Assembly (NCBI RefSeq): GCF_022482905.1
Contig: NZ_JAKVOI010000001.1
Span: 1,055,958 to 1,119,957, forward strand
DNA length: 64,000 bases
Origin: Clostridium sp.
GTDB taxonomy: Bacteria > Bacillota > Clostridia > Clostridiales > Clostridiaceae
Direction of reading: 5' to 3'
Every line of letters starts with the position of its first letter. Positions within the stretch are counted from its first letter, which is position 1. Of this stretch, positions 6,063-46,937 are shown in pieces. Below the pieces are notes generated by a model. That model worked only from the letters and a program-made list of their open reading frames with translations. It ran no database searches and had not been told where the DNA came from. Position numbers and translations under genes: made by a program.

Positions 6063-6144
6063 GATTGACTAGAAAACTAGAGATCAAGTTCTTCATATTG
6101 GAGCATATTTGTTTTGTATTTATTATGAAAGCTTGATCTTTTTG
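6063..6144 (+). promoter_or_regulatory. Conserved hairpin attenuator, copy 1 (before ROK gene)
   Basis: GATTGA, then CTAG-AAAA-CTAG (6069-6080), then AGATCAAG. The last segment pairs with CTTGATCT at 6132-6139, followed by T5. The small hairpin and the terminator share the bases AG at 6079-6080. Confidence 0.8.
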
Positions 6145-6173
6145 TTTTAATTAAAATACATGGAACAAAAGGT

Positions 6174-7190
6174 ATGATTGCTATGCTAAATGATTGCAAA
6201 TTGTTACAAAACTTAAAAGTGGACGAAAAAAAGATATTTAATTTACTTCAGAAAAATGGAGCCATGAGTAAAAATGAAATCTTACTTAAAGCAAAGATGA
6301 AATTAACTACATTGAATCGTATTATGAATCCTCTTGAGAAAAATGGACTTATAGTTGAAAAATGTATAGGAGAATCTACCGGTGGCAGGAAACCTGTATT
6401 GTATGATGTGAATATATGCAGATTTTATATTTTATGTATAGACATATCTGAATCATGTATAGACATATCTATAGTTAACCTGAGAATGGAGATTATTCAT
6501 AAAAAAGTTTTTCAAATTGAATATGGTACTTCTCCGAATGATTTAATAGAAATGATTCAAAAGAGCATAGGAAGTATATATGTAGAATTAAGGCTTGATT
6601 TTATTCAGCTTGCTGGAGTAGGACTTGCAGTTGATACAAGAGTATTGCCTGGTGTACCCATAAAAGAAATGCTGGAGAAAAAACTTAAATGCAGTATAGT
6701 CAGTGAGAACAGATCCAATTCAGCTGTTGTTGCAGAATATTTATATGGATATGGAAAAATGTTTAGTAATCTGGCTTATTTTAATTGTGGATTGTGCATA
6801 AGAGAAGGTACCATTCTACAGGGGAGAGTTTTAAGAACAGCAGGAAATAATGAATACGCTTTTGAACAGATTATTTCCAGAAGCAGAGATTATATTAATT
6901 TTAAAAGCATGTGTATTGAAACTAAAAAATATAACTTGATGCCTGAAAAAACGATTATGAATGTTGCAAGAACACTTGGGACAAGTATGAATTCATATGT
7001 AAATTTGTTGAATTTGAATTGTATCATACTGGATGGATGTTTGGCAAGTCTGGATTTATTTTATAATACATGTATTAAATATGTTGATGGAAAAGTTGTT
7101 TTTAAAAGAAGAGGATACTTCAAAGATGACGTTGTTCCTGTAGGAATTGCAGCGTTGGTATTTGAAAGATTAGTTGAAAATCAAATATAG
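6174..7190 (+). CDS. ROK-family transcriptional regulator
   Basis: A 338-aa protein with an N-terminal winged helix (about 15-75, NGAMSKNEILLKAKMKLTTLNRIMNPLEKNGLIVE) followed by a degenerate ROK sugar-kinase-like fold (about 85-330; STGGRKPVLYDVN marks the junction). ROK regulators sense small molecules, usually sugars. The zinc/kinase signature CxCGxxGC of catalytic members is absent. ATG 6183 is an alternative start, with AAAAGG 10 nt upstream. Transcription passes the attenuator at 6063-6144, so its level is tied to the same signal as metK and nifH. It may regulate part of this locus, but that is inference. Confidence 0.8.
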   Translation: MIAMLNDCKLLQNLKVDEKKIFNLLQKNGAMSKNEILLKAKMKLTTLNRIMNPLEKNGLIVEKCIGESTGGRKPVLYDVNICRFYILCIDISESCIDISIVNLRMEIIHKKVFQIEYGTSPNDLIEMIQKSIGSIYVELRLDFIQLAGVGLAVDTRVLPGVPIKEMLEKKLKCSIVSENRSNSAVVAEYLYGYGKMFSNLAYFNCGLCIREGTILQGRVLRTAGNNEYAFEQIISRSRDYINFKSMCIETKKYNLMPEKTIMNVARTLGTSMNSYVNLLNLNCIILDGCLASLDLFYNTCIKYVDGKVVFKRRGYFKDDVVPVGIAALVFERLVENQI

Positions 7191-7285
7191 TTTTGATGTC
7201 TGTTTAAATTCAAGCTTCTGTTGCTGAAATCAATAAATTATCAGTTTATACATAATAAAATTCAGTTAAGGTAGGAGAGGTTTCA

Positions 7286-7453
7286 TTGAATAAAAAAGTA
7301 GTAAATGATAATATTTTAAAGAGTATTTCAAAGGAAAATTTGAATATGGTATTATGTATGCTAAAGATAATAAAGTATGGTTCAATAACTTTAGTTGTTC
7401 AAGATGGGAAAGTGATACAGGTGGAAAAAAAAGAAAAAGTAAGATTGATATAG
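7286..7453 (+). CDS. YezD-like small protein (DUF2292), second copy
   Basis: A 55-aa frame with TTG 7286 after TAGGAGAGG. The core KYGSITLVVQDGKVIQVEK matches the copy at 5271 almost residue for residue. It follows the ROK gene by 95 nt with no leader of its own, so it is probably cotranscribed. A new promoter and S-box start right after it. Function of the family is unknown. Confidence 0.82.
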   Translation: MNKKVVNDNILKSISKENLNMVLCMLKIIKYGSITLVVQDGKVIQVEKKEKVRLI

Positions 7454-7457
7454 ACTG

Positions 7458-7486
7458 TTGACAAAGTATTTGAAATAATATATAGT
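7458..7486 (+). promoter_or_regulatory. Probable promoter for S-box 3
   Basis: TTGACA 7458-7463 with a TATATA/TATAGT -10 region at about 7480-7486. Confidence 0.55.
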
Positions 7487-7514
7487 ATATGTAACTTAAA
7501 AGTAAATAAAAATT

Positions 7515-44678: not shown

Positions 44679-44727
44679 ATTGATAATTTATTCTGATTTA
44701 CTTTAAAATATTTAGGAGGAAAATTAA

Positions 44728-45546
44728 ATGAGACAAGTAGCTATTTACGGAAAAGGTGGAATTGGAAAGTCCACTACAACACAGAATCTTACTGCAGGAC
44801 TGGCAGAGTTGGGAAAACATGTTATGGTAGTAGGATGTGATCCGAAGGCAGATTCCACGAGGTTGCTTTTGGGAGGATTGGCTCAGAAGACAGTCCTGGA
44901 TACATTGAGGGAAGAAGGAGAAGATGTCGATCTTGATGCAATATTGAAGACAGGCTTTGGAAACATAAAGTGTGTTGAATCAGGAGGACCGGAACCGGGA
45001 GTTGGATGTGCAGGAAGGGGAATAATAACTTCCATCAACATGCTTGAACAGCTTGGTGCATATACGGATGATCTTGATTATGTTTTCTACGATGTACTTG
45101 GTGATGTTGTATGCGGTGGTTTTGCAATGCCTATACGTGAAGGAAAAGCACAGGAGATATATATAGTAGCCAGCGGTGAAATGATGGCAATGTATGCGGC
45201 AAACAACATATCAAAGGGTATAAGCAAATTTGCAAATGCCGGTGGAGTAAGACTGGGAGGAATAATATGCAACAGCAGAAAGGTTGACAATGAATATGAA
45301 CTGCTTGATGCATTTGCTAAAAAGCTGGGAAGCCAGTTGATATATTTCGTACCGAGGAGTCCGGAGGTTACAAAGGCAGAAATAAACAAGCAGACTGTCA
45401 TACAATATGATCCTAAGGCTAAACAGGCAGATGAGTATAGATCACTAGCTAAAGCCATAGACGGAAATGACATGTTTGTAATTCCAAAACCTATGGCACA
45501 GGAGGAATTGGAATCAATAATGCTGGAACACGGTCTTATTGGATAA
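44728..45546 (+). CDS. nifH: NifH-family iron protein
   Basis: A 272-aa ATP-dependent electron donor with one [4Fe-4S] cluster per dimer. P-loop [13 protein letters not shown], cluster Cys94 (GVGCAGRG, with the neighbouring Arg that is ADP-ribosylated in NifH) and Cys129 ([10 protein letters not shown]). The length and motifs are those of true NifH/VnfH/MarH proteins. It is the only NifH in the window, facing seven D/K pairs, and its leader has an S-box and attenuator 11. It may serve all of the D/K pairs. Whether it also serves a real nitrogenase elsewhere cannot be seen. Confidence 0.93.
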
Positions 45547-45559
45547 TAAGCAATGTTAT

Positions 45560-45620
45560 TTAGTTGATCAGAAAAACTGAAGGCTAAAGAAATTGAAATT
45601 TTCTTTAGCCTTTTTTATTA
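45560..45620 (+). promoter_or_regulatory. Conserved hairpin attenuator, copy 12 (nifH-nifB gap)
   Basis: GTTGA, TCAG-AAAAA-CTGA, then AGGCTAAAGAAA pairing perfectly with TTTCTTTAGCCT, followed by T6. TCAG/CTGA is a further compensatory variant of the stem. Confidence 0.86.
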
Positions 45621-45638
45621 ATAATTGGGAGGAAATTT

Positions 45639-46877
45639 ATGAGTATAGAAGCAGCAAAAAATATTGACAGTAAAACACTTCAACATCCATGTTACAACTG
45701 TATTGCCCATAAGTATGCAAGAATGCATATACCGGTAGCTCCAAAATGCAATGTAAGCTGTAATTTTTGTAATAGAAAGTATGACTGTGTAAATGAGACA
45801 AGACCGGGAGTTACAAGTGAGGTCCTGACTCCTGAGGGTGCAAGAGATAGATTCAAGGTTGTGAAAGAAAAACTGAATAATTTGACTGTAGTTGGAATAG
45901 CCGGGCCGGGAGATCCACTTGCAAATTTTGAAGAGACAAAAAGGTCAATAGAACTTATAAAAGAAGTTTCTCCTAATATTACATTCTGTCTTTCAACTAA
46001 TGGACTGATGCTTCCGTTTTATGCAGATGAACTTATAAAGCTTGGAGTCAGCCACATAACGATAACAATAAATGCGGTTGATCCGAAAATAGGTGGACAA
46101 ATCTACAAGTTCGTAAATTATCTGGGGAAAAAATATGAAGGTGAAGAAGCAGGAAGAATATTACTTCATAATCAGCTTTCAGGATTGAAGTATATTACCC
46201 AGAAGGGAATTGTATCGAAAGTAAACATCGTTCTTATAAAAGGGATAAATGATAATCATGTACATGATATAGTTAAAATGGCAAAAGAATGTGGTGCATA
46301 TATGACCAATATAATGCCGCTTATACCGGTTGAGGGAAGTGTATTTCAAGATAGACCTACTGTAAATGATTTTGAACTGAACAAGATAAGGAAGGAATGC
46401 GGTGAAGATTTGAAGCAGATGTATCACTGCAAACAGTGCAGGGCAGATGCAATAGGAACACTTGAAGATGATGTATCGGCTGAATTCAGGGGAATTGATT
46501 TGAAAGGTATAAACAAAATTGACAACAAGAAGATAAAATTCAGATTTGCAGTTGCAACTAAATCAGGTGTAAGTATAGATGAACATTTTGGACATGCAAC
46601 GCAGTTATATATATATGATGCCATAAATGGAAAAACTACTTTTGTTGAAAAGAGAAATGTGGATAAGTTCTGCAGTGGAGTAGATGAATGCAGCGGACAT
46701 GATGACAGAATAACGCGTATTGTAGATGCAGTAAGTGACTGTAATGCAGTTCTGGCTTTGAGGGCAGGATTTGAACCTATAAATTTACTGGGCAGCAAAG
46801 GTATAAAGTTGTTCCAGATGTATGATCAGATAGAAAAGGGCATAAAACATGCCGTGGAATTATTGGAAAAAAGTTGA
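45639..46877 (+). CDS. nifB: NifB, radical SAM cofactor-core synthase with NifX-like C-terminus
   Basis: A 412-aa protein. The radical SAM cluster cysteines are 37, 41 and 44 (CNVSCNFCNRKYDC), preceded by HPCYNCIAHKYARMH as in NifB. Residues about 290-412 form a NifX/NafY-type domain (FAVATKSGVSIDEHFGHATQ). NifB makes NifB-co, the carbide-containing Fe8S9 core. The presence of one NifB without NifE, NifN or NifV here fits enzymes using an L-cluster-like cofactor rather than FeMo-co. It is behind attenuator 12, and its stop codon overlaps the start of copy 13. Confidence 0.94.
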   Translation: MSIEAAKNIDSKTLQHPCYNCIAHKYARMHIPVAPKCNVSCNFCNRKYDCVNETRPGVTSEVLTPEGARDRFKVVKEKLNNLTVVGIAGPGDPLANFEETKRSIELIKEVSPNITFCLSTNGLMLPFYADELIKLGVSHITITINAVDPKIGGQIYKFVNYLGKKYEGEEAGRILLHNQLSGLKYITQKGIVSKVNIVLIKGINDNHVHDIVKMAKECGAYMTNIMPLIPVEGSVFQDRPTVNDFELNKIRKECGEDLKQMYHCKQCRADAIGTLEDDVSAEFRGIDLKGINKIDNKKIKFRFAVATKSGVSIDEHFGHATQLYIYDAINGKTTFVEKRNVDKFCSGVDECSGHDDRITRIVDAVSDCNAVLALRAGFEPINLLGSKGIKLFQMYDQIEKGIKHAVELLEKS

Positions 46878-46937
46878 CCAGAAATACTGGAGGCTAGGTA
46901 TTTGTCCACTAGACAAATGTTTAGCCTCCTTTTCATA
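46870..46937 (+). promoter_or_regulatory. Conserved hairpin attenuator, copy 13 (before D4-K4 and the long unit)
   Basis: GTTGA, CCAG-AAATA-CTGG, then AGGCTAGGTATTTGTC pairing with GACAAATGTTTAGCCT; the terminator stem GGAGGCTA/TAGCCTCC also uses the second GG of CTGG. T4 follows. The motif starts inside the nifB stop codon. Confidence 0.86.

Follow-up and report, generated by a model that had tools for sequence, protein, structure and literature searches.

In the LicT/BglG/SacY antitermination systems, a small protein stabilises a small hairpin that has asymmetric internal loops and overlaps a terminator. Hairpins likewise control the antitermination of metabolic operons in the ANTAR systems (EutV, NasR, GnfR). 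In a further system, as described in the available part of one report (PMC12691694), LoaP bound to the dfn leader hairpin gives read-through of the terminator; the dfn hairpin is of the UNCG type, and a pause site lies between it and its terminator. Here we describe a hairpin element present in 13 copies in a stretch of 64,000 nucleotides of a Clostridium sp. genome (assembly GCF_022482905.1, contig NZ_JAKVOI010000001.1, positions 1,055,958 to 1,119,957; hereafter, the window). The element works like LicT, ANTAR or LoaP antitermination, yet it fits the tested membership features of none of them. With a probability of roughly 0.7, the hairpins are antiterminators dependent on DUF2292 (YezD), a small protein encoded in the same window, and respond to sulfur starvation.

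All 13 copies named in the original prediction were read at or near the places given there, and they represent a real element that is larger than first described. Eleven of the earlier coordinates were right within ~10 bases, while the two on the minus strand marked the far end of the terminator rather than the hairpin (for corrected positions see Table 1). The complete element is 31-32 nt long and consists of an outer helix of 3-6 bp (for example, UUGACU/GGUCAA), an asymmetric GA/A internal loop, a 4-bp inner stem and an A-rich loop of 4-5 nt. The motif proposed earlier captured the small hairpin and was incomplete around it: its 'GAN' holds half of the internal loop, and the last bases of its 'AGG' belong to the outer helix. 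Across 62 distinct copies (64 in total, alignment A6), the outer helix is closed by a Y-G pair in every case, and the terminal pair of the inner stem is either G-C (56 copies) or A-U (6 copies). The internal loop is GA (rarely AA or UA) opposite A. Both loops are conserved where pairing alone would not demand conservation.

Covariation of the inner stem, noticed previously, was confirmed and extends to the outer helix. An alignment of 14 copies from one genome (the 13 window hairpins and one from elsewhere in the same genome) shows two-sided changes in 7 of the 10 pairs. Its covariation score is 0.50 compared with 0.31 for shuffled alignments (0 of 500 shuffles reached 0.50), and 95% of the cells pair, whereas sliding the 3' strand by 1-3 bases reduces pairing to at most 51%. 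The 64-copy alignment, which was fitted to the model and is therefore biased towards it, and in which many rows are related, shows two-sided changes in 9 of the 10 pairs across the 62 distinct copies and scores 0.61 (0.31 for shuffles, at most 0.25 when slid). The covariance model R1, built from the 14 own-genome copies, assigns 35-47 bits (E ~1e-9 to 2e-6) to the 13 window hairpins, which are part of its building sequences. A less dependent gauge of chance comes from Clostridia genomes that have no DUF2292 match: 260 of 267 gave no hit with a further model, R2, at E<=0.01. Variants with an altered first inner pair or a 3-bp inner stem occur after DUF2292 genes at three loci (L070, L084 and L087). 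They scored low or were missed by the models; the hairpin family is wider than modelled.

The hairpins had been said to match no known riboswitch or T-box, and a search against Rfam release 15 bears this out. At the gathering cut-off, one T-box and seven SAM-I riboswitches were found in the window, and no family matched any of the window hairpins. Hairpins in 20 further loci had no match either; those loci gave SAM riboswitches, one tRNA and one TwoAYGGAY RNA. The latter (L071:577-733), barely over the cut-off, precedes a DUF2292 gene. When one hairpin site was searched permissively (E<=5), six low-scoring matches came back, all far below the cut-offs.

In line with the original claim that a terminator always follows, every window hairpin (13/13) runs into a stem of 7 bp or more plus a T-run, and the 5' arm of this stem begins within the 3' strand of the hairpin; in the copy at 26468 the arm begins only near the end of that strand. 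The overlap is equally evident in larger sets. An overlapping terminator is present in 51 of the 64 copies of alignment A6, compared with 1.7 expected from mononucleotide shuffles; the 13 misses include mismatched near-terminators, three hairpins at locus L027, and loci L086 and L088, where no terminator is visible. In the class of a Geobacteraceae metagenome-assembled genome (MAG), hereafter the second class, 19 of the 20 best-hit loci (one per genome) have it, as opposed to 0.6 in shuffles, although in one of the 19 (L131) the stem begins only at the hairpin end. The window hairpins fold essentially as drawn (-6.9 to -12.3 kcal/mol). The terminator segments (-9.3 to -34.3 kcal/mol) are more stable than the hairpin of the same copy in all 13 cases, given that the segments are longer than the hairpins and that the best of several segment ends was taken. 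Termination should therefore be the default unless something holds the hairpin. Together with the shared sequence and the conserved loops, this supports the earlier idea that a factor on the hairpin permits read-through.

The distribution of the element singles out one protein family. We searched Clostridia with a covariance model, as the original prediction had proposed, and detected the hairpin in 29 of 293 genomes (model R2, E<=0.01). DUF2292 (PF10055, E<=1e-3) is present in 26 genomes and both are present in 22 (Fisher 3e-23). At a stricter hairpin threshold (E<=1e-3), 19 of 20 hairpin genomes code for DUF2292. Among 244 genomes of the second class, the hairpin (model R3) and DUF2292 are each found in 61 genomes and occur together in 54 (Fisher 2e-38). 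R2 and R3 include some sequences from the surveyed groups and are not wholly independent of them. Nitrogenase-like genes served as a control. PF00148 occurs in 57 of the 293 Clostridia genomes, 21 of which also have the hairpin; within these 57, DUF2292 is present in 20 of the 21 hairpin-positive but in only 2 of the 36 hairpin-negative genomes. All seven genomes of loci L016-L022 have DUF2292 as well; they add little, because they were picked via a gene of this cluster, and two of them are apparently the same as genomes G290 and G275 of the Clostridia set (identical coordinates). The own genome has two PF10055 genes, both in the window at the start of the hairpin cluster, and in a Bacillota MAG two DUF2292 open reading frames (ORFs) alternate with hairpins ahead of a metK-like ORF. 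Since the hairpin is found mostly in bacteria with DUF2292, this protein is probably the switch that opens the genes behind the hairpin under sulfur shortage.

Gene order points in the same direction. We considered 28 of the 30 non-window DUF2292 matches from the Clostridia set, omitting one with a stop in it and a weak second match within a locus already included; 24 loci were scanned with model R2, L067 in a separate run, and L065, L073 and L091 with a simple script only. A model hit lies within ~150 nt after the gene, on the same strand, in 14 of the 28 loci (one of them, L070, weak at E=0.064), and two more were recognised by eye. The remaining loci have their hairpin upstream or at a distance of 0.3 to several kb, or none was noticed close by. 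Four loci, L089, L065 (G191), L066 and L067, have no hairpin directly behind DUF2292 though the genome has hairpins elsewhere. In the second class we counted at least 21 adjacent DUF2292-hairpin pairs with a spacing of 26-109 nt. The hairpin is just upstream of DUF2292 in G422 and G541, and G191 is another upstream case. Cytobacillus spongiae has a SAM riboswitch, then yezD, then the hairpin with its terminator, and behind these the genes for PAPS reductase, a phosphate-type transporter and sat. The DUF2292 gene thus mostly precedes the hairpin, which fits a regulator placed before its own attenuator better than an ordinary target, expected behind the hairpin. Moreover, a divergent DUF2292 subfamily keeps the hairpin, and its two scanned downstream ORFs are a DUF4430 protein and an unmatched secreted-looking protein. 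That the hairpin follows this subfamily despite seemingly different targets supports a protein-RNA link over a mere shared pathway.

The DUF2292 protein has ~55 residues, predicted as helices followed by strands in weak AlphaFold models. Its conserved core is YGSITLVVQDGKVIQIEKNEKVRL in one subfamily and approximately YGEIKIIIQDxxPIRVEExKK in the other. A search of viral contigs gave no DUF2292 relative, and among the matches listed by a search of open-licence papers there was no link of DUF2292 or YezD to RNA.

From the hairpin RNA, its covariation, its overlap with terminators, its co-occurrence with DUF2292 and the gene order, all of them directly observed, we infer three things: DUF2292 binds the hairpin, read-through is favoured as a result, and the signal is a shortage of sulfur. 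Two folds would be open to the nascent RNA, the 31-nt hairpin and an intrinsic terminator built with the hairpin's 3' strand, and the terminator would usually win unaided. DUF2292 may bind the hairpin through the conserved internal loop and the A-rich loop and keep it folded; the held hairpin would then block termination, allowing RNA polymerase to read into the operon. With a T-box and a SAM riboswitch ahead of the first DUF2292 gene, scarcity of sulfur amino acids and of SAM would raise the level of DUF2292, which in turn would open the sulfur and nitrogenase-like operons. The two leader elements stand in tandem (4806-5260), each followed by a terminator-like stem; the T-box specifier, read by eye, is presumably UGC (Cys). 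The second DUF2292 gene sits behind the hairpin-controlled ROK gene, and several of the putatively hairpin-controlled operons carry a SAM riboswitch of their own in series. Five of the seven SAM aptamers of the window precede a hairpin on the same strand, with gaps of 47 to 397 nt; the other two lie before the first DUF2292 gene and after the hairpin at 15631, respectively. Outside the window a SAM riboswitch lies upstream of DUF2292 in only 4 of 19 other distinct loci (L063, L069, L091 and L098; L106 repeats L063), so the riboswitch layer is not general.

A number of observations weigh against DUF2292 as the antiterminator, and some of them favour the alternative that another protein binds the hairpin, DUF2292 being accessory or just a co-regulated sulfur gene. 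There are hairpin genomes without a DUF2292 match (7/29 in Clostridia and 7/61 in the second class), and three of the latter, G405, G436 and G463, have strong hairpins (E 6e-7 to 4e-5). Conversely, 4 of 26 and 7 of 61 DUF2292 genomes are without a hairpin match; in three of the four Clostridia cases a hairpin-like structure to which the model gave a low score or none lies right after the gene (G098, E=0.064; G224 and G240, by eye). Because the genomes of one class are related to each other, and because R2 and R3 include sequences from these groups, the Fisher values exaggerate how independent the observations are. About half of the 28 DUF2292 loci have no hairpin directly behind the gene. Plasmid-borne DUF2292 loci of Novosphingobium, Paenibacillus, Niallia and Priestia yielded no convincing hairpin (a weak antisense match in Niallia was not accepted), and no clear hairpin adjoins the two Alphaproteobacterial DUF2292 loci examined; in a Novosphingobium with no recognised hairpin, DUF2292 adjoins sulfate-transport genes. 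The AlphaFold models are weak (pLDDT 68 and 65), and Foldseek found nothing significant in the PDB for the first of them (best E 0.9). A match to a solved structure at E=1.4 was not taken as a relative. In addition, the three L027 hairpins have no terminator, and some targets do not look sulfur-related (S-layer-like, DUF4430, URO-D, MFS transporter, outer-membrane FadL-like and resolvase proteins). Nevertheless, we consider a different binding protein unlikely. It does not readily account for adjacent hairpins mostly coming after the DUF2292 gene, as for a regulator ahead of its target (with upstream exceptions, for example in G191, G422 and G541), nor for the divergent subfamily retaining the hairpin while its two scanned downstream ORFs are not sulfur genes. 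Two known candidates for such a protein, a CAT_RBD protein and a NusG paralogue, were also not found in the own genome. LicT-type (RAT/CAT) control was rejected, since CAT_RBD (PF03123) had 0 matches there at E<=1e-3, whereas 4 of 14 control genomes were positive; Rfam bglG-cis-reg (RAT) was not found in the window at the gathering cut-off, and the one site searched permissively reached 15.3 bits where 80 are required. LoaP, our first idea, was rejected because the genome codes for a single NusG without a paralogue (one PF02357 match, E<=1e-3) and because the dfn hairpin is of a different, UNCG, type.

It might be argued that an ANTAR antiterminator of an unusual loop type acts on the hairpin, for instance the EutV-like regulator just downstream of the window. 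Indeed, one ANTAR response regulator and a kinase are encoded ~8 kb past the window, and GnfR exerts ANTAR control of Geobacter nif genes. In the available part of another study, gnfR is named only as a nitrogen-fixation response regulator (PMC7962754). We find ANTAR control improbable, because this single ANTAR protein found in the genome adjoins eut-like genes that have their own A1/G4 hexaloop hairpins (genes and loops judged by eye), whereas in our element paired hexaloop hairpins with A1 and G4 were not found: it is a single hairpin with an A-rich loop of 4-5 nt. The original prediction had set aside both LicT-type RAT and ANTAR, the latter for its hexaloop, and the absence of a CAT_RBD protein and of an A1/G4 hexaloop pair, together with the location of the lone ANTAR protein in a eut-like locus, agrees with that choice. 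Equally improbable is a minimal riboswitch, in which a small molecule or an ion would be bound directly by the internal loop and the A-rich loop. The conserved unpaired bases and the several copies in series with SAM riboswitches would suit it, but an aptamer of 31 nt that has some eight conserved unpaired bases and shows neither a pseudoknot nor a junction would be a small one, judging by general knowledge, and the association with DUF2292 would be left unexplained. Finally, nearly all copies end in an intrinsic terminator, as would plain terminators or repeats without regulatory meaning. The chance that they are nothing else is negligible in view of the covariation in a helix that excludes the terminator, the conserved loops and the co-occurrence with one protein family.

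Thirteen copies had been taken to define the regulon. This count holds for the window and is too low for the genome, in which the 14-copy model detected 26 sites at E<=1 and 23 at E<=0.01 (of 1348 first-look candidates, 150 were scored). The genes behind sites outside the window include further nitrogenase-like ORFs (by eye), a Cons_hypoth698 transporter (Pfam) behind APS-reductase-like ORFs (by eye), a phosphodiesterase/nucleotide-pyrophosphatase family protein (Pfam) beside a thioredoxin-like ORF (by eye), a glutamine-synthetase-like ORF and a more distant resolvase-like ORF (both by eye). A SAM riboswitch followed by a hairpin-terminator lies ahead of an amino-acid-permease-like ORF (L004, by eye) and ahead of an NMT1-type binding protein (Pfam) and then an ABC-permease-like ORF (L025). 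At L027:1355-2238 (own genome, ~721 kb), a 152-residue Met/Cys-rich ORF lies behind three hairpins, and a short Cys-rich ORF before them; the former is possibly a sulfur store or a metal binder under other control. Seven loci found via a window nitrogenase-like protein yielded 16 hairpin matches (E<=0.5) in six of them, representing four Clostridium species, one Bacillota MAG and one Geobacteraceae MAG; the seventh, L020, had no match at this threshold. Overall, the hairpin crosses phyla: it was observed in Clostridia, in a single plasmid record from Bacilli and in the second class.

The genes following the new hits were compiled, as had been suggested earlier. There are 46 next ORFs, 17 of which, picked partly for looking recognisable, were scanned with Pfam. 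They include MetK, a Cys/Met-metabolism PLP enzyme, PALP (cysteine-synthase-like), an NMT1 binding protein, ABC ATPases, an Rrf2 regulator, a rhodanese, a NifH-family protein, radical SAM proteins (NifB-like by eye) and Nitro_FeMo-Co. The earlier list of genes downstream of the window hairpins largely stands, and NifH and NifB pass NCBIfam cut-offs. It is weaker for the three D/K proteins scanned, which are below NCBIfam cut-offs, and for the two S-layer-like proteins, for which the SlpA match is far below the cut-off; the 145-residue 'split-barrel' protein (15863-16300) has no Pfam match. Two regions, window 34110-46877 and L002:378-9755, combine several nitrogenase-like D/K genes with nifH, nifB, nifX-like and metY genes, and these clusters are possibly methylthio-alkane-reductase-like systems. 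Directly after the second one, at L002:9883-17002, there is an EutV/EutW-like pair with eut-like genes and hexaloop ANTAR-type hairpins (by eye).

Table 1. Regulatory RNA elements and DUF2292 genes of the window (positions counted from the first nucleotide of the window)
Position	Strand	Feature	Support
4806..5043	+	T-box leader upstream of first DUF2292 gene	Rfam RF00230, 116 bits
5090..5190	+	SAM-I aptamer, then terminator-like stem, upstream of DUF2292 copy a	RF00162, 92 bits
5265..5429	+	DUF2292 (YezD) copy a, proposed hairpin-binding antiterminator	PF10055 E=6e-18; start codon by eye
5551..5662	+	SAM-I riboswitch upstream of hairpin 1	Rfam
6059..6143	+	Hairpin 6059-6089 and overlapping terminator, before ROK-family gene	R1 45.4 bits
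7286..7453	+	DUF2292 (YezD) copy b, behind ROK gene	PF10055 E=2e-15
7514..7621	+	SAM-I riboswitch, first of two serial attenuators	Rfam
7687..7780	+	Hairpin 7687-7717 and terminator, before GNAT and TetR genes	R1 47.1 bits
14065..14173	+	SAM-I riboswitch before metK	Rfam
14254..14336	+	Hairpin 14254-14285 and terminator, before metK	R1 39.3 bits
15631..15725	+	Hairpin 15631-15662 and terminator, upstream of SAM riboswitch 15747-15856	R1 38.0 bits
21718..21778	-	Hairpin 21748-21778 and terminator, before Cys/Met-metabolism PLP enzyme gene (metY-like)	R1 39.2 bits
24767..24839	-	Hairpin 24809-24839 and terminator, before heavy-metal P-type ATPase gene (copA-like)	R1 35.4 bits
26468..26540	+	Hairpin 26468-26498 and terminator, before S-layer-like gene	R1 38.9 bits
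29486..29556	+	Hairpin 29486-29516 and terminator, before second S-layer-like gene	R1 38.4 bits
33888..33992	+	SAM-I riboswitch before nitrogenase-like operon	Rfam
34055..34127	+	Hairpin 34055-34086 and terminator, before nitrogenase-like D/K genes	R1 40.2 bits
36980..37058	+	Hairpin 36980-37010 and terminator, before nifX-like, OAH sulfhydrylase (metY) and further D/K-like genes	R1 47.3 bits
44442..44547	+	SAM-I riboswitch before nifH	Rfam
44594..44675	+	Hairpin 44594-44624 and terminator, before nifH	R1 46.5 bits
45558..45616	+	Hairpin 45558-45589 and terminator, between nifH and nifB	R1 41.3 bits
46868..46932	+	Hairpin 46868-46899 and terminator, overlaps nifB end, precedes ORF at 46947	R1 40.0 bits

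In a broader perspective, DUF2292 (YezD, and presumably OscA) probably represents a new class of RNA-binding antiterminator that governs a sulfur-starvation regulon across phyla, although we hold this wider proposal a little less firmly than the reading of the hairpins themselves. In the present genome it would take the form of an RNA-protein-RNA cascade, in which T-box and SAM leaders would control a 55-residue protein that opens hairpin-terminators in series with further SAM riboswitches. If true, a widespread family of small proteins, so far of unknown role, would gain a function, an RNA family unmatched in Rfam release 15 would be added to those described, and it would become clear how anaerobes turn on nitrogenase-like (possibly methylthio-alkane-reductase-like) and sulfur-scavenging operons. 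Should OscA be a DUF2292 protein, as we take it to be, the old puzzle of its part in sulfur starvation and chromate resistance would also become directly testable.

The available parts of two reports describe OscA of Pseudomonas corrugata as a small protein of unknown function encoded with sulfate-transport genes; the oscA transcription unit is strongly expressed after chromate, and inactivation of OscA leads to chromate sensitivity (PMC3596284, PMC2996968). The chromate sensitivity and the sulfate-transport genes agree with a positive role in sulfur starvation. OscA resembles the DUF2292 proteins studied here in being small and linked to sulfur genes, and no RNA role is mentioned for it in those parts of the reports (PMC3596284, PMC2996968). 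SAM-I riboswitches and T-boxes are likewise leader attenuators and occur in the same leaders as the hairpin, but they are separate elements at other coordinates. LoaP and dfn share with our proposal the idea of a protein that acts on a leader hairpin to give read-through, and differ, as far as the available part of the source describes them, in the UNCG type of the hairpin and in the pause site. ANTAR systems also rely on hairpin-controlled antitermination, and differ in their paired A1/G4 hexaloops. The RNAs of the LicT/BglG/SacY systems are like our hairpin in their small size, asymmetric internal loop and overlap with a terminator, and differ from it in sequence.

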